Source: a bacterium
Lineage (GTDB): Bacteria; T1Sed10-126
NCBI GenBank assembly: GCA_003554945.1
Contig: PWHN01000011.1
Span: forward strand, 1 to 9,470
DNA: 9,470 nucleotides
Reading direction: 5' to 3'
Below the pieces are notes generated by a model. That model was not told where the DNA came from, did no database searches, and saw only the letters and a list, made by a program, of their open reading frames with translations. The position numbers were made by a program, and so were the translations under genes. Shown piece after piece: positions 3,439 to 9,398 of this stretch; within the stretch, counting starts at the first letter, position 1, and each line of letters begins with the position of its first letter.

Positions 3439-3521
3439 CAAACTGGGAGTGGCTCTTCCTTAAAAAAGTCCTTGACAGGGCTTAAGAGTGTCCGGGTTAG
3501 CGCTTTCACTGTCATTACGGT

Positions 3522-3559
3522 AACGTATGACGTCCCGGGGAACGAATGACGTCCCAGGG
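3522..3559 (+). repeat. Tandem duplication of a 19-nt unit
   Basis: Two adjacent 19-nt units (3522-3540 and 3541-3559) share the pattern AACG-W-ATGACGTCCC-R-GGG and differ at two positions. The second unit is the left part of the 65-nt repeat copy at 3540-3604. The copy at 5182 has only one unit. Confidence 0.7.
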
Positions 3560-3604
3560 CTTGATCTAACGCTCGTCATTGCGGACTACGATCCGCAATC
3601 CATT
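3540..3604 (+). repeat. 65-nt dispersed repeat, copy A, containing a REP-like hairpin
   Basis: Matches 5182-5246 without gaps at 60 of 65 positions. The right half contains the hairpin ATTGCGGA (3578-3585), loop CTACGA, TCCGCAAT (3592-3599), framed by CGTC on the left and CCA on the right. Two of the five differences from copy B are the inner base pair of the stem, A-T here and G-C there, so pairing is kept. The layout resembles REP/palindromic units of other bacteria. No REP-associated tyrosine transposase gene is in the window. Confidence 0.85.
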
Positions 3605-3615
3605 TTAAGATCTTC

Positions 3616-3681
3616 GGTTTATAGTTTAAAGTTTCCAGTTTTCAGTTTTAGGTGCTACCCCGCGACTTGCAACCCGCAACA
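3616..3681 (+). repeat. Two short arrays with 7-nt period
   Basis: From 3616 to 3650 the sequence repeats every seven bases as (A/G)GTTTNN for five units. After ten other bases, 3661-3681 repeats every seven bases as YGCRACN for three units. The arrays end 8 bases before the RseC ribosome binding site. Heptanucleotide tandem repeats are known between genes in some bacteria, such as the STRR sequences of cyanobacteria. I infer only an analogy of form here, not relatedness. Confidence 0.6.
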
Positions 3682-3688
3682 TGGTTTT

Positions 3689-3694
3689 AAGGAG
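3689..3694 (+). promoter_or_regulatory. Ribosome binding site deciding the rseC start
   Basis: AAGGAG lies 8 bases before TTG at 3703. An in-frame GTG at 3694 overlaps the AAGGAG itself and cannot use it, so TTG 3703 is the likely start. Confidence 0.7.
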
Positions 3695-3702
3695 TGAACA
3701 TT

Positions 3703-4122
3703 TTGCCCGAAGCAATTGTGAAAGAAATTTCCGGTTCCACCGTCCGTCTCACCTGCACTTCGGCTCCCGGCTGTGAAGACTGCGAATCACTCGCTTGCAC
3801 TTCCCGGGGGGACAAATCCGAAATAAAAGCAGAACTTCCGGCGAACCTCGATTTATCTCCCGGCGATACAGTAGAAATTGAACCGGAAGATGAAATCCTC
3901 TGGGGCGTCGGCGCTCTGTTCTTTCTCCTCCCCATGCTCTGCTTTTTAGCCGGGGTGCTCGCCGGCTACTATCTTACCCGGCAATTTCAACTTTTCCCTC
4001 TACCGCCGGAGCTAACCGGCTTCATTGGCGGGCTCGCTCTCCTGCTCCTCTCCCTCCCCGTCGTTCGCTGGCTGGGAAAACAGTTCGCCACAAGCCATTT
4101 CCTGGTAAAAATCAAGAACTAA
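3703..4122 (+). CDS. rseC: RseC/MucC-family membrane protein (SoxR-reducing system)
   Basis: Small inner-membrane protein of 139 residues. In E. coli RseC acts with the RsxABCDGE (Rnf-like) complex in reducing SoxR and also influences sigma-E signalling. In many anaerobes RseC-family genes lie beside rnf genes, and a role in Rnf assembly or maturation has been suggested. The N-terminal soluble part carries four cysteines (18, 24, 27, 32) in a loop typical of the family, followed by a small beta-rich segment ending at VEIEPEDEILWG. Two membrane helices follow (about 69-91 and 105-125), then a short basic C-terminus. The start is TTG, chosen from the AAGGAG spacing. It is convergent with the hepT gene, 59 bases away. 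The closest functional relative in the window is rnfB, 2.6 kb upstream and split off by an insertion sequence. A sigma-E role is unlikely to be conserved outside proteobacteria. Confidence 0.82.
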   Translation: MPEAIVKEISGSTVRLTCTSAPGCEDCESLACTSRGDKSEIKAELPANLDLSPGDTVEIEPEDEILWGVGALFFLLPMLCFLAGVLAGYYLTRQFQLFPLPPELTGFIGGLALLLLSLPVVRWLGKQFATSHFLVKIKN

Positions 4123-4181
4123 TTTAGCCTCGGTTTTTTACAATCAAAATTTACACCCGACTCGTTTACTTTGTCTTTACC

Positions 4182-4637
4182 TTACAATTGCTTCCGCTCG
4201 GCTTCTTTATCCTGCTCTAATTCACCAAATTCAGTTTGAAGTTTTTCCAACAATGGAGGAAGCTCGGATAACAGACTCTGGTAGGCATCATACACATGAT
4301 TATCTTTCAGATCATTGTATTCATGGGCAAGACGATTGCGAAGACCGGCCAATTGAGCCCAGTGTTCAGCTTGTTCGGAATCGTAAAAGCCCGTCTGTGT
4401 CAACAGTATGAAGGATTCATAATAATCTTTGGGTTGGCGTGAAATCTCTTCGGTCACAATATGGTAATTAAGGTCGATTAAACGGTTAATAATACGCTCA
4501 AGTAATCGCTCGGTTTTTAAGCGATACTCGAGATCAGCAAGATAGTCCTCTTTTGTGATCTCTTTCCACTCGGACAGTTTTTCGATGTCGTCAATAATCA
4601 AGGATATCTTTCGATTGACTAACTCCGAATCAATCAT
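4182..4637 (-). CDS. hepT: HepT-like HEPN-domain toxin (DUF86 family)
   Basis: Probable ribonuclease toxin of the MntA-HepT type II toxin-antitoxin family. The 151-residue, almost wholly helical product carries the HEPN catalytic motif R-x4-H-x-Y as Arg100, His105 and Tyr107 in RNRLAHEY, which is complete. In studied members Arg and His are needed for RNA cleavage, and the partner nucleotidyltransferase attaches AMP units to the Tyr, which silences the toxin. Length fits the family (about 130-155). The start codon overlaps the mntA stop by 4 bases (ATGA), so the two are translationally coupled with antitoxin first. The tail after residue 135 is rich in Glu, Lys and Gln. Nothing looks broken. 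Its RNA target cannot be told from the sequence. A role in anti-phage defence or plasmid or island stability is a family-level inference. Confidence 0.9.
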   Translation of the reverse strand: MIDSELVNRKISLIIDDIEKLSEWKEITKEDYLADLEYRLKTERLLERIINRLIDLNYHIVTEEISRQPKDYYESFILLTQTGFYDSEQAEHWAQLAGLRNRLAHEYNDLKDNHVYDAYQSLLSELPPLLEKLQTEFGELEQDKEAERKQL

Positions 4638-5098
4638 GTAGTTTTCAACCTTTGTATTCGCCTGTGGTTGGCAGTTTTTTCTCGTTCCAGATACGGTTTA
4701 TAATCACTATACCGGTGGAAGGCCATACGTGCAAATTCTTTGAATGTATCTTTTTTCCCGGCTAACAAGAGCGCATCCTCAACTATTTTTTTTAGGTGCA
4801 GTGGGTCTGCTCCGTTGAGCCAGATCAGGTCAATATACTGATAATCAACGTCTAATAATTCACGTAATTTGCTGAGAAATTCATATCTTTCATCAAACGA
4901 AAACCGGTTTTCTCTCTGATAAGCTAAGTCCAGGTCACTGTACGAATGATTTTCCCGCCGGGCAAATGATCCAAAAACCAACAGCAGAGAAACTTTATAG
5001 TCCTTACAAAGATTCAGTAATTCCCGCCTACATCTTGCAGAGGAAGTTAGTTGTTTTATCAATGCTCCATGCTCCCGAGCCAGCACAGCGTTATCCAT
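4634..5098 (-). CDS. mntA: MntA-like nucleotidyltransferase antitoxin
   Basis: Minimal nucleotidyltransferase (MNT, pol-beta fold) of 154 residues, the expected antitoxin for the HepT gene that follows it. The signature GSx10DxD is exact: Gly43-Ser44 in VFGSFAR, then Asp55 and Asp57 in SDLDLAY. A likely third metal-binding Asp is Asp90 in QYIDLIWLN. Known members use ATP to add AMP to the Tyr of the HepT R-x4-H-x-Y motif. All catalytic residues are present, so the protein is expected to be active and not just a binding antitoxin. The start at 5098 is preceded on its strand by GAGTGGTGA at a normal distance. A promoter and a palindromic site lie immediately upstream. The basic C-terminus (HRRIQRLK) is unusual-looking but short. 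Substrate and partner are inferred from family and gene order. Confidence 0.9.
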   Translation of the reverse strand: MDNAVLAREHGALIKQLTSSARCRRELLNLCKDYKVSLLLVFGSFARRENHSYSDLDLAYQRENRFSFDERYEFLSKLRELLDVDYQYIDLIWLNGADPLHLKKIVEDALLLAGKKDTFKEFARMAFHRYSDYKPYLEREKTANHRRIQRLKTT

Positions 5099-5115
5099 TT
5101 TTAATCACCACTCAA

Positions 5116-5144
5116 AAGATACTATACATAGTATTAACTGTCAA
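5116..5144 (-). promoter_or_regulatory. Probable sigma-70-type promoter of mntA-hepT
   Basis: On the minus strand a perfect -35 TTGACA (5144-5139) is followed after 17 bases by TATCTT (5121-5116), which matches TATAAT at four of six positions. The expected transcript start is near 5109, giving a very short leader before ATG 5098. Confidence 0.6.
5119..5134. promoter_or_regulatory. Palindromic operator candidate inside the mntA-hepT promoter
   Basis: ATACTAT (5119-5125), AC, ATAGTAT (5128-5134). The 7-bp arms pair exactly, and the site fills most of the spacer and the upstream half of the -10 box. A protein bound here would block RNA polymerase, as in self-repressing toxin-antitoxin operons. 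Neither MntA nor HepT has an obvious DNA-binding domain, so the binder could be the complex or another regulator. Confidence 0.5.
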
Positions 5145-5181
5145 TTTTCGTAACTGGTTAGCGCCCCTCGGGTAATTGTGG

Positions 5182-5246
5182 GAACGTATGACGTCCCAGG
5201 GCTTGATCCAACGATCGTCATTGCGGGCTACGACCCGCAATCCATT
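5182..5246 (+). repeat. 65-nt dispersed repeat, copy B, containing a REP-like hairpin
   Basis: Matches 3540-3604 at 60 of 65 positions. Hairpin ATTGCGGG (5220-5227), loop CTACGA, CCCGCAAT (5234-5241). The inner pair is G-C where copy A has A-T. It lies between the mntA promoter and the 3' end of the antiporter operon, which is a typical place for REP-like elements. Confidence 0.85.
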
Positions 5247-5252
5247 CCCCCC

Positions 5253-5287
5253 CTTTGTCTTTCCCCCCTTCGAGGGGGGAAGACAAG
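5253..5287. repeat. C/G-rich hairpin at the 3' end of the antiporter operon
   Basis: Six C (5263-5268) pair with six G (5274-5279). The stem continues outward with small bulges, TTTGTCTTT against AAGACAA. It begins 2 bases beyond the antiporter stop codon on the minus strand. No T run follows on that strand, so it is more likely a stabilising 3' hairpin or a decayed repeat than a classical terminator. Confidence 0.5.
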
Positions 5288-5289
5288 TA

Positions 5290-6930
5290 CTATACTTCTT
5301 TACCAAGCATTTCTGCGGAACGTTCCCACAGTGCTTCCAGGTCTTTCTCGTCGTCAACCAGTGAATGAAACAGTTCCTCGAGGTGATCGGCGGCGAGCAG
5401 ATCAGAAACCGCCACGTAGTAGGCTCCCCGATCCAGCAACTCATGCGCACGCCGACGGTCTTTTGTGCGCAATATTACCTTGAGCTGATCAGAATAGCGA
5501 ACCAGCTCGTCACTGATCGCCCAAAAATCTACCGTCGAAACGACCAGGTCAGCCTCTGAAAAATTAGCCAGCTCACGGGTGTCCGGTTCAAACACATCCC
5601 CAAAAACAAAGGCTTTACTTTTCTCTTTTAACTCGTCAATTTTCCAGGGGCTACTCTCGATAACAACGTATTTCACATCATATTCATTACAGAGTTCGAC
5701 CAAACGGCGAGCAAAATCGCCGTAACCAACAATTACTATGTGATTTTTAAGCTCAGCCGGAACAAAACTATATTTTTTAAGTTTCTTGCCATGATCTCCA
5801 ACTAATCCAAGAAACGCAAGTATTCGAAAAATCTGTTCGTTGTAGTAACGGGTAAAGCTGGTTGTAATCAACGTAATTGCTGCGGCAAGGATAACGGCTT
5901 CAAAAATTTCCGGTATGATTAGCCCGAGAATTAAAGCCTCGATTACAAAAATTAAGGCAAATTCTCCCACCTGATCGAGATTTAATCCGGTTAATGTGGC
6001 CGTTCGACGCTCATAATCTTTTGAATTTAAGATCCAAATCATAACCATTGGCTTAACTACAACCGCTATCACTACCAGTAAAATTGTCAAACTCACCACT
6101 TCTCTAGAAGGCATTGTCACTAATGCGCCGATTGTAATAAAAAAGATAGCTACAAAGAAATCATTAATCGATTCCAGGCTGTTAATCACTTCTGAATATT
6201 TTACCGGCCGATAATTAATAGCCACCCCGGCGGCAAAAGCTCCCACAACGATAGATGTTCCCATCAACTGCGCTGAGCCGAGAAAAAACAGCAGAATAGC
6301 CACGGTCATAATTAACATAATTTCACTTGAGTGGCGGGCGAATTTACCTATTAAATCATACAAATAGCGGTTGATTATAGTTGCGAACACAAGCAGTATC
6401 ACTCCGTATCCAAGGTGTTCGGCAACAGTGCTAATTTGAAAAGTACCGGCTGCTACGACCATTAATAAGAACAGAGCAATAAAATCCTGGATTGAGTGGA
6501 TTGTCTCCGAAAGCCAATCGTGAACGTAATCCATATAGCGAGTATAAAATAGAGTTGATCCCATGAGCGAAGAGGACATTGAAGCTGTCAACCCAATAAA
6601 TATCGCCTGTCCCGGCGGATAGCCGATAATCAAACCGGCGCTAAAACCAATAAAGACCACCGCCAGCAGCTGTCCCACAGCAGCCAGCTCCGGGTCAGTC
6701 ACCTCAGTATGAAAGTCTTTAGTCTGTAGACGGACGGTGGAAGTAAACACCAGCAGTGCAATCCCCAGTCGAGCTATATCCAGCATAATCGCCTCTTCAA
6801 CAAAATAACCAACCACCAGACCGGCTACAATTAATGCCGGCGCCGTCGACACACTAAAGATTTTGGCAAGCAATAAAAAGGGCGCCGCTATAAGAAACAT
6901 CAGCGAGATTATAGACAGTAAATCAGCCAT
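5290..6930 (-). CDS. CPA2/Kef-type cation:proton antiporter with TrkA-N domain
   Basis: Membrane protein of 546 residues that probably exchanges K+ or Na+ for H+. Residues 1-375 form about 12 helices with antiporter-family landmarks: a membrane Asp149 in SIQDFIALF (Kef proteins have QD here), a small-residue SMSSSLMGS segment at 117-125, GAFAAGVAI (230-238), IFFITIGAL (262-270) and LDQVGEFALIF (318-328). A soluble C-terminal Rossmann domain of TrkA-N type starts near 396 and has an intact nucleotide motif VGYGDFA (401-407) with the acidic residue Glu425 at the end of the second strand. It is the last gene of a three-gene operon. Its ATG directly abuts the stop of the upstream paralog, and its GGAG ribosome binding site (6941-6938) lies inside that gene, so translation is probably coupled. 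The transported ion and the ligand of the C-domain are not known. No TrkA-C domain follows. Confidence 0.87.
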   Translation of the reverse strand: MADLLSIISLMFLIAAPFLLLAKIFSVSTAPALIVAGLVVGYFVEEAIMLDIARLGIALLVFTSTVRLQTKDFHTEVTDPELAAVGQLLAVVFIGFSAGLIIGYPPGQAIFIGLTASMSSSLMGSTLFYTRYMDYVHDWLSETIHSIQDFIALFLLMVVAAGTFQISTVAEHLGYGVILLVFATIINRYLYDLIGKFARHSSEIMLIMTVAILLFFLGSAQLMGTSIVVGAFAAGVAINYRPVKYSEVINSLESINDFFVAIFFITIGALVTMPSREVVSLTILLVVIAVVVKPMVMIWILNSKDYERRTATLTGLNLDQVGEFALIFVIEALILGLIIPEIFEAVILAAAITLITTSFTRYYNEQIFRILAFLGLVGDHGKKLKKYSFVPAELKNHIVIVGYGDFARRLVELCNEYDVKYVVIESSPWKIDELKEKSKAFVFGDVFEPDTRELANFSEADLVVSTVDFWAISDELVRYSDQLKVILRTKDRRRAHELLDRGAYYVAVSDLLAADHLEELFHSLVDDEKDLEALWERSAEMLGKEV

Positions 6931-8691
6931 TTAACTGCTCCAGTGCGGTCGCACAGTTGGAAATAGTGCATCTGACCGCAGTAGTTCAAGATCAGCTTCT
7001 ACAATTTTTTCAAAATTAACCGGTTCCTTGATGTAAGCCGTCAGATAGCGCTTCAACTGGTCGGCTGCGAGCTGCGGCGCCAGAACTACGTAGTCGACGC
7101 CCCGTTTATACAAATGGACGGCATCTTTTTCAGTTCGCGCCTCTGCAAGTACAGTAGCTCCGTCACGAGCCTCCTCGACAAGCATCTCATTTATTTCTCG
7201 CTGGTCGGATGAAGAAAAGACAAAGTCGGCTCGCTCAAGCCCGGCTGCCTTCCTTATCTTATGATATTTAGCGTCACCAAATACTGCTTCAAACCCGGAG
7301 CGCTCGATTGCCTCGTCTTCTTCAATGTTACGATCAATGACAACAATATCATCGTATTTGTCCTCTAATAGCAATACGACCCGCCGAGCGATTTCATCAA
7401 ATCCGACGATTACAGCGTGATTGCAAAGATCCTCCGTCGGTGGCTTTTCTATTGCTCCGCCGGTTAATCTGTCAAACCAGGGCTTCACAAACTCGTACAA
7501 ATCTCGATTGTATTGGATAAAATAGACCGAGATGCTCATCGTTATCAGAGCAATAATCGTCAAAAAACCTAATATCGCCGAATCAACAAAACCACCGGCT
7601 ACTGCAACAGAACCAACAATCAGGCCAAATTCACTCACCTGGACCATGTTTATGCTGCCCCGGAATACCGTCTCTGGGTCAAATTTTTGCCAGCTGATGA
7701 GAATCACATAGATCAGGAACTTAGCAACCATCAGTACAACTGAAGCTATTAGCGCTTCCCTCCAGTAAGTCAGCAGTGCTCTGGTATCGAGCTCCAGACC
7801 AACGGAGACGAAAAATACCAGTATAAACAGGTCGGTCAACGGAGATACCCTGGCCTCCAGTTCCTCACTGTAAGGCATCTGGGCAATAGCTAACCCGGCG
7901 AGAAAGGCGCCCATTTCAATTGACATTCCCAGCTCGTGGGAAACCAGGACAAAAAGAAAGAACCAGGCAATAGAAACCAGGAAAAAGATTTTTTGATTGT
8001 TAGCAATAAATCTAAACAGGGGCGGAAGAAAATACAACGATCCGATCGCGGCAAAAATGGCAATCATACTAACCAATCCAAAAACCATGCCTAAAGTCGA
8101 GGCCACGTCCATTACACTTTCGGGTTGCCCGGCAGCCAGCACAGTCAAAATAATAACTACCACGATGTCCTCAAATAACAGAATACCAATGTCAATTTTC
8201 CCGTGCAGGCTGGTGGCGGTTCCTTTGTCGTTTAACATTTTTATCGTCACGGCCGTCGAGCTGTACATTACCGCTAGACCGATAATTATGGCTTCCGATG
8301 TGCTAAAACCGAGACCAATTGATGTTAAAAATCCAATTGAGGAAATTAAGATCATCAAAAGAACCGAAATTTTAAGCAGCGGCTTGAGAATATGCTTTAC
8401 CTCGTCAACCCGCATTTCAATTCCTATCAAGAAGAGCAGAAAGGCCAGCCCCAGCTCCGCCATCGTATGCGTTAATTCACCCGGCTCCACAAAACCAATT
8501 ACCGCCGGCCCCAAAATTAGTCCGGTTATAATGTAAGCAATAATTGTTGGCTGTTTCAGGCGGGCGGCAAGCAATCCCATCAACGCGGCGTAAATTATAA
8601 TAATGATAAAATCTCCCGCCATCATCAACTCCATCGACGGCAGTTCAACCGGTATATGATAGGTTTCAATCAGACCAATAAGAGCTTCCAT
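6931..8691 (-). CDS. CPA2/Kef-type cation:proton antiporter with degenerate TrkA-N motif
   Basis: A 586-residue paralog of the downstream gene. The N-terminal 28 residues precede the first clear helix. About 12 helices follow to residue 395, with FLFLIGIEMR (86-94), YSSTAVTIK, LFEDIVVVI (Glu-Asp175, where Kef has QD), GAFLAGLAI, LVFFVSVGLELD and MVQVSEFGLIVG, all typical CPA2 positions. The C-terminal TrkA-N-like domain begins near 424, but its nucleotide loop reads VGFDEIA instead of GxGxxA/G: the second glycine is Asp. Asp453 at the end of strand two is kept. This domain may bind a different ligand or serve as the non-binding half of a pair. An extra tail follows residue 551. The start ATG 8691 is preceded by TTG at 8694; neither has a strong ribosome binding site, so the start is uncertain by one codon. 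The glutaredoxin gene ends about 30 bases upstream. Confidence 0.87.
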   Translation of the reverse strand: MEALIGLIETYHIPVELPSMELMMAGDFIIIIIYAALMGLLAARLKQPTIIAYIITGLILGPAVIGFVEPGELTHTMAELGLAFLLFLIGIEMRVDEVKHILKPLLKISVLLMILISSIGFLTSIGLGFSTSEAIIIGLAVMYSSTAVTIKMLNDKGTATSLHGKIDIGILLFEDIVVVIILTVLAAGQPESVMDVASTLGMVFGLVSMIAIFAAIGSLYFLPPLFRFIANNQKIFFLVSIAWFFLFVLVSHELGMSIEMGAFLAGLAIAQMPYSEELEARVSPLTDLFILVFFVSVGLELDTRALLTYWREALIASVVLMVAKFLIYVILISWQKFDPETVFRGSINMVQVSEFGLIVGSVAVAGGFVDSAILGFLTIIALITMSISVYFIQYNRDLYEFVKPWFDRLTGGAIEKPPTEDLCNHAVIVGFDEIARRVVLLLEDKYDDIVVIDRNIEEDEAIERSGFEAVFGDAKYHKIRKAAGLERADFVFSSSDQREINEMLVEEARDGATVLAEARTEKDAVHLYKRGVDYVVLAPQLAADQLKRYLTAYIKEPVNFEKIVEADLELLRSDALFPTVRPHWSS

Positions 8692-8721
8692 CAAGATAGA
8701 TCAGTCCATTCTACTTTTTAA

Positions 8722-8958
8722 TTAAATACTTTCTCTTAACCAATCAATAATGTCGTCGGATTCATAGAGCGGCTCACCGTCAATCAGCAGACACGGCACC
8801 TGAATCTTGCCACCGACTTCCTTCAATCTATCCTTAGCCGCCAGGTCCTCGTTTATTTCCTTTAACTCCACCTCAGTTATACCTTCTTCTTCCATAAACG
8901 CCAGCACCTTTTTGCTGAAAGGACATTCTCCTTTATAAAAAAGCTCCAGTTCTGCCAT
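8722..8958 (-). CDS. Glutaredoxin-like thiol protein, monothiol CPFS type
   Basis: A 78-residue thioredoxin-fold protein. The active-site segment GECPFSKKVL has one cysteine (Cys12) followed by PFS, the monothiol form of a CPxC centre. The VPC segment (54-56) holds the cis-Pro expected beside the active site, with an extra Cys56. The end (LYESDDIIDWL) matches the glutaredoxin / GST-N pattern. Function is likely reduction of disulfides or mixed thiols, or Fe-S or thiol sensing. The start is ATG 8958, because GGAGGTGAT lies just upstream; a TTG at 8973 in the same frame is part of that ribosome binding site. It is first in an operon with two Kef-like antiporters. Kef channels of E. coli are controlled by glutathione adducts, so a thiol protein made with them suggests redox control. 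That link is inferred. Confidence 0.85.
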   Translation of the reverse strand: MAELELFYKGECPFSKKVLAFMEEEGITEVELKEINEDLAAKDRLKEVGGKIQVPCLLIDGEPLYESDDIIDWLRESI

Positions 8959-8962
8959 AATA

Positions 8963-8971
8963 ATCACCTCC
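8963..8971 (-). promoter_or_regulatory. Strong ribosome binding site of the glutaredoxin gene
   Basis: GGAGGTGAT on the minus strand, 4 bases before ATG 8958 (9 from the GG core). It decides the start against the TTG that overlaps it. A small inverted repeat AATATC-N4-GATATT (8975-8990) lies directly upstream in the leader. Confidence 0.8.
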
Positions 8972-9175
8972 AAAAATATCTTTGGATATTATCAAATACT
9001 CAAGACTTATACCACTGTTGCACGACTAATTGTAAAATCGTAACTGCTTCGTATCCTCTCATCTGGTTTCATCTTTGAACTCAAAAATGTCAGTCTGGAT
9101 AAATCTCTTTACCAATTTTAGTGAATGCGAGAAAATACTTCTGAACAGCGAGGATTTGGATCTGCTCAATAATCA

Positions 9176-9266
9176 GGGGGGACTCCCATGACCTTGTGTC
9201 ATGGGTGAACCTGTTTGGGCAGCTAATCACAATTTGTCCCCCCCTCAAAGCGGGCCAGGTGGGGAC
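9176..9266. repeat. Nested and competing C/G-rich stems
   Basis: GGGGGGAC (9176-9183) pairs with GTCCCCCC (9236-9243) around an inner hairpin, CCCATGAC (9185-9192) with GTCATGGG (9198-9205) and loop CTTGT. The same C run can pair instead with GGGGAC at 9261-9266. Only one of the two outer pairings can form at a time. It could be a decayed dispersed repeat or a switch-like fold; no evidence favours regulation. Confidence 0.45.
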
Positions 9267-9287
9267 TATTGTTAATTGACGCGGGTA

Positions 9288-9310
9288 TCAACCGGGCAAT
9301 CTAGTGACTT
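9288..9310 (+). repeat. Right-half copy of the hairpin repeat
   Basis: Matches 9330-9352 at 18 of 23 positions, covering the loop end, right arm and right flank (CCGGGCAAT, then CTAGTGACTT). The left arm is missing or unrecognisable. Confidence 0.5.
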
Positions 9311-9315
9311 AAGGT

Positions 9316-9345
9316 CGTCATTGTCCGGCTTGACCGGACAATCCA
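9316..9345 (+). repeat. Hairpin repeat, copy C
   Basis: ATTGTCCGG (9320-9328), loop CTTGA, CCGGACAAT (9334-9342), framed by CGTC and CCA exactly as in copies A and B. The inner stem differs fully from A and B yet pairs perfectly. Confidence 0.85.
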
Positions 9346-9368
9346 GTGTCTTTCGGTCTTCATTCGCT

Positions 9369-9398
9369 CGTCATTGTCCAACTTGATTGGACAATCCA
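9369..9398 (+). repeat. Hairpin repeat, copy D
   Basis: ATTGTCCAA (9373-9381), loop CTTGA, TTGGACAAT (9387-9395), framed by CGTC and CCA. It differs from copy C at two adjacent stem pairs (GG/CC becomes AA/TT), both compensated. Confidence 0.85.

Follow-up and report, generated by a model that had tools for sequence, protein, structure and literature searches.

CGTC-tagged REP hairpins occur in several subfamilies in a draft bacterial genome and are not linked to a tyrosine transposase gene

The dispersed hairpins found in this window (the whole 9,470-nt stretch analyzed, contig 115 of a 2.2 Mb draft genome in 121 contigs) are CGTC-tagged REPs, a class already described in 2013. They are very probably non-coding, non-autonomous elements spread in trans by machinery other than a neighboring Y1 tyrosine transposase. 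This reading is founded on their observed anatomy, copy number, subfamilies, dimers, intergenic placement, expansion compared to a relative, and absence of a linked Y1 gene. The sole part that may be new is a 19-nt module that some copies carry within their loops.

The four hairpins of the original prediction were all recovered with perfect stems and two loops, CTACGA and CTTGA, each with CGTC directly 5' and CCA directly 3' (Table 1). The half copy also claimed was borne out as a 3' arm with its tail, together spanning 9292-9310. It lies ahead of hairpins 3 and 4, which form a direct tandem 53 bp apart start to start, and the same remnant recurs ahead of a subfamily c copy in L036 near 7970. 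When folded computationally as single-stranded DNA, hairpins 1 and 3 gave -7.5 kcal/mol (z -3.7) and -9.6 kcal/mol (z -4.5), respectively. Hairpins 1 and 2 sit within a common 67-nt extended repeat (3538-3604 and 5180-5246, 93% identity), and just upstream of each is a degenerate REP that bears the 19-nt module.

Table 1. CGTC REPs and REP remnants in the window.
Feature	Position (strand)	Subfamily	Stem and loop	Tail or further detail
Degenerate CGTC REP	3511..3566 (+)		GTCATTACGGT ... CTTGATC	Two tandem 19-nt modules, 3522-3540 and 3541-3559
Hairpin 1, CGTC REP	3574..3602 (+)	b	ATTGCGGA-CTACGA-TCCGCAAT, 3578-3599; 8-bp stem, 6-nt loop	CCA
Degenerate REP	5172..5209 (+)		GTAATTGTGGG ... CTTGATCC	One 19-nt module, 5183-5201
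Hairpin 2, CGTC REP	5216..5244 (+)	b	ATTGCGGG-CTACGA-CCCGCAAT, 5220-5241; 8-bp stem, 6-nt loop	CCA
Remnant REP	9288..9310 (+)		3' arm CCGGGCAAT, 9292-9300	CTAGTGACTT
Hairpin 3, CGTC REP	9316..9345 (+)	c	ATTGTCCGG-CTTGA-CCGGACAAT, 9320-9342; 9-bp stem	CCA
Hairpin 4, CGTC REP	9369..9398 (+)	c	ATTGTCCAA-CTTGA-TTGGACAAT, 9373-9395; 9-bp stem	CCA

Other features of the window were noted alongside the hairpins. A HepT/MntA type VII toxin-antitoxin pair (4182-5098) lies between the two 67-nt extended repeats. A second dispersed palindromic repeat, beginning CCCCCCTTTGTCTTTCCCCCCTTCRAGGGGGG, occupies 5245-5287, is also present in L027, L030, L032 and L039, and often directly adjoins CGTC REPs. Two neighboring genes at 5290-8694 encode Na+/H+ exchanger domain proteins fused to TrkA-N domains. 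An ORF at 1780-2946 is transposase-like, resembling IS701/IS1634 family models only weakly and matching nothing in Pfam, and a perfect 17-bp inverted repeat (GGATTATGCACGAAAAA, 3-nt spacer, 140-176) lies upstream of an RnfB-like iron-sulphur protein gene.

The original prediction depended on further copies elsewhere in the genome, and genome-wide pattern searches returned many: 131 matches to GTCATTG..CAATCC and 75 to CGTCATTC..GAATCCA, each with none for the reversed-pattern control, and 230 to a wider pattern (control 1). The genome thus holds at least about 230 CGTC REPs in five subfamilies. A detailed census anchored on GTCAT covered 393 kb of the 2.2 Mb, window included. Since these 393 kb contain 50 perfect [CT]GTCAT hairpins compared to 0 in 20 Markov-1 random sequences, the four hairpins are not a product of chance, and an anchor-free scan of the same DNA for stems of at least 8 bp also returned CGTC as the most frequent flank.

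The census yielded 60 copies. Subfamilies a (n=10) and b (n=17) both have the stem ATTGCGG[GA], with the loop CTTGA in a and the 6-nt loop CNNCGA in b. Subfamily c (n=11) combines 9-bp stems with CTTGA, d (n=16) has the stem AT[TC]CCGGC and the loop CNNCGA, and e (n=6) has the stem ATTCC[CT]GC and the loop GNAA. By the orientation convention of this analysis, there were seven tail-to-tail pairs, nine tandems and two tag-to-tag pairs. The frame originally proposed, ATTG...CAAT-CCA, holds for the four window hairpins but is too narrow for the family, whose frame is (C/T)GTC-AT...AT-CCA and includes the stems ATTCCGGC, ATTCCCGC and ATCCCGGC.

These features identify the family. We had been pointed to REP units, correctly, and told of no named family with this frame, which was wrong: Di Nocera, De Gregorio and Rocco (2013, PMC3733652) described CGTC REPs as having a CGTC/TGTC tag, an 8-9 bp stem starting AT, a 4-5 nt loop and a CCA tail, as forming dimers, and as lacking a linked transposase. 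The super-family is defined by an unpaired CGTC (or TGTC/CCTC) at one end, and all 60 census copies carry CGTC (47) or TGTC (13). Their stems are likewise 8-9 bp beginning A-T, T-A, and the 3-nt tail, mostly CCA in the super-family, is CCA in 59 of the 60. Super-family dimers are inverted, with heterodimers in families 2 and 3, and all seven tail-to-tail pairs here are heterodimers; no transposase is associated in either case. Loops of subfamilies a, c and e fit the 4-5 nt range, and those of b and d, including window hairpins 1 and 2, are 6 nt; other loop lengths are allowed in a few species (PMC3733652).

Compared to families CGTC-1 to -3, the copies here are alike in tag, stem, a/c/e loops, CCA tail, heterodimers, mostly intergenic location and lack of a linked transposase, but differ in the CNNCGA loop of b and d, in the 19-nt module that about 30 copies carry where arm meets loop, and in a host lineage of just two genomes in our set. 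Neisseria dRS3 and Rickettsia RPE-4/RPE-6 belong to the same super-family, under the names CGTC-1/CGTC-4 (PMC3733652). Subfamily e (ATTCCCGC-GNAA-GCGGGAAT) shares the stem and loop lengths of CGTC-1, whereas here only 1 of 60 copies lies inside a gene and several subfamilies occur side by side. GTAG REPs, REPINs and RAYT/TnpA-REP systems (PMC3116915, PMC8266576) resemble this family in their short tagged hairpins, inverted pairs and high copy number. In contrast to those systems, the tag here is CGTC/TGTC and a Y1 gene flanked by REPs is absent.

We next consider the paired stem differences, which had been presented as both arms changing together. These compensated differences are real. Among 21 distinct b/d copies, 98.8% of stem cells in the alignment were paired and three pairs had changed on both sides; among nine distinct c copies, the corresponding values were 97.5% and five. 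In both sets the covariation was significant, with scores above those of every one of 500 shuffles and of every slid structure. Uncompensated mismatches were few rather than many, as 50 of the 60 census copies have perfect stems and the other 10 have one single-arm change each, with 4 producing G-T and 6 leaving the position unpaired.

The covariation signal mainly separates a few stem types, that is, it lies between subfamilies, and the changes confined to one arm of a single copy resemble ordinary neutral decay instead of RNA selection. For these two reasons the covariation speaks for source copies only: the palindrome mattered in them, which differs from selection on every copy, and DNA and RNA palindromes account for the signal equally well. 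Template switching between unequal inverted-repeat arms is also documented to homogenize them (PMC7202029, PMC8604942), and this process yields the same covariation pattern. The claim of selection on the folded RNA is therefore not upheld by the stems.

With respect to genes, 59 of the 60 census copies were outside crudely predicted genes. Co-directional gaps held 46 of 55 copies, compared to 65% expected from gap length, convergent gaps held 2 of 55 with no enrichment, and strand relative to genes was near even (27:19). Because no strand preference stands out and few copies lie in convergent gaps, placement gives no hint of a terminator role.

The sole relative from the same family (G001) has two CGTC REPs, with another stem, ATAC...GTAT. 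An identical 28-nt a-type hairpin occurs at a minimum of 107 loci across many phyla, in beta-, alpha- and zetaproteobacteria, Deferribacteraceae, Clostridia, Bacteroidales, Coriobacteriales, Endomicrobium and Parcubacteria MAGs, with many copies in one Deferribacteraceae MAG. Some single contigs with the identical hairpin, such as those from termite-gut MAGs, may be mis-binned. Three betaproteobacterial genomes (L073, L081, L115) share the identical CGTC REP in the same conserved gene neighborhood, which suggests an inherited insertion.

The original prediction also proposed movement by tyrosine transposases and a Y1 gene flanked by the same frame. No CGTC hairpin was found in 68 Y1-transposase loci from many genomes (219 kb), including all five Y1 loci of this genome. 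Neither hallmark of a REPtron, the REP-flanked Y1 gene or the GTAG tag, is present. The five Y1 genes (L011-L015) are RAYT-like and encode proteins of about 300 aa whose C-terminal domain is helix-turn-helix or DnaA-like, and each gene is bounded by distinct terminal inverted repeats of its own, 21-28 nt long (TIRYT type). Y1 proteins with such C-terminal domains are of a type reported not to be REP-linked (PMC6006769). A profile made from nine sequences, one of them in the wrong frame, detected no Y1 protein in REP-neighboring loci of other genomes, and clustering of REP-neighboring genes for a dedicated mover recovered only syntenic housekeeping genes of related species. A dedicated transposase was rejected on these three lines, in agreement with PMC3733652.

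No empty/occupied site pair turned up, and from their copy number and spread we infer that the elements are mobile. In the favored scenario, an element of about 29 nt would fold into a hairpin as single-stranded DNA and spread, mainly to intergenic sites, singly, in tandem or as inverted heterodimers. The responsible machinery would act in trans and would not be a neighboring REP-type Y1 transposase. By analogy with GTAG REPs, the mobile form may be the single-stranded DNA hairpin, read via its unpaired CGTC and CCA flanks. Paired stem differences would have arisen in source copies. Either one arm would have mutated and template switching between the arms during replication would have restored a perfect palindrome, or selection would have favored stems that the mover recognizes; the copies would then decay neutrally. 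Any regulation of neighboring genes would be secondary.

The usual REP/RAYT arrangement could still operate if one of the genome's own Y1 transposases mobilized CGTC hairpins in trans despite the other ends on its gene. Five long Y1 proteins with the C-terminal domains named above are present, and an NF047646-type gene is present in 10 of about 12 CGTC-positive genomes compared to 85 of 145 overall. We consider this unlikely, as the five genes keep their own repeats with a CGTC hairpin near none of them, the relative G001 has Y1 genes yet only two REPs, and G095, a single contig with 24 matches to the CGTCATTC pattern, has no Y1 gene detected by the PF01797 and NF047646 profiles.

Even less probable is a role for the hairpins as conserved RNA elements (terminators, mRNA stabilizers or protein sites), with compensatory changes that reflect selection on transcripts. 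Such a role is consistent with the significant covariation, the intergenic sites with a preference for co-directional gaps, and the RNA roles proposed for many REPs (PMC3733652). It is opposed by the near-even strand ratio, the rarity in convergent gaps, the lack of bias of single-arm changes toward G-U-tolerant pairs (4 of 10), the absence of any Rfam match above gathering score in the window, and the collapse of copy number in G001. Replication by itself, with template switching perfecting imperfect palindromes without selection, is a more serious alternative that we still hold to be doubtful. The described arm homogenization and the perfect stems alongside few single-arm changes match it, but template switching alone leaves dispersal to more than 200 sites unexplained, and the subfamilies differ in loop and stem length besides arm sequence. 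This process is compatible with the favored scenario and is partly included in it.

The 19-nt module AACGWATRACGTCCCAGGG had 34 matches genome-wide at up to 3 mismatches (control 0). In its host REPs it follows the 5' arm and precedes the loop, several times as a tandem pair; the host stems include ATTGCGGG, ATTGTCCGG, ATTGCCCGG and ATTGCCGGG, and in one case the loop behind it is CTCCGA. Of 386 genomes, just two contained the module: this one, and G001 with a single copy that likewise sits where arm and loop of a CGTC REP meet, on a different stem, ATACTGGG. It was absent from viral contigs. Tentatively, and against the odds, the module could be a tiny mobile element, a "parasite of a parasite", that targets the arm/loop junction in CGTC REPs whatever their stem, may duplicate 2 bp (GG) on insertion and can stack in tandem, or a fixed loop cassette around which both stem arms are replaced. 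In a comparable case, two Comamonadaceae-type genomes (L074 near 443, L132 near 4458) have the same 29-nt hairpin-bearing loop, CCCCGGATCGGAGTCCGGGGCAGGCCCGA, on CGTC REP stems that differ between the two.

Few bacterial repeats are as widespread as CGTC REPs, and their means of movement has been an issue since 2013. The set in the genome analyzed here ranks among the richer and more varied ones, its sole relative has almost none, and the usual suspect is disfavored by a genome that is rich in CGTC REPs and has no detectable Y1 gene. The loop module provides a marker for how CGTC hairpins change stems, and either reading of it, if true, would point to machinery that recognizes the folded REP.
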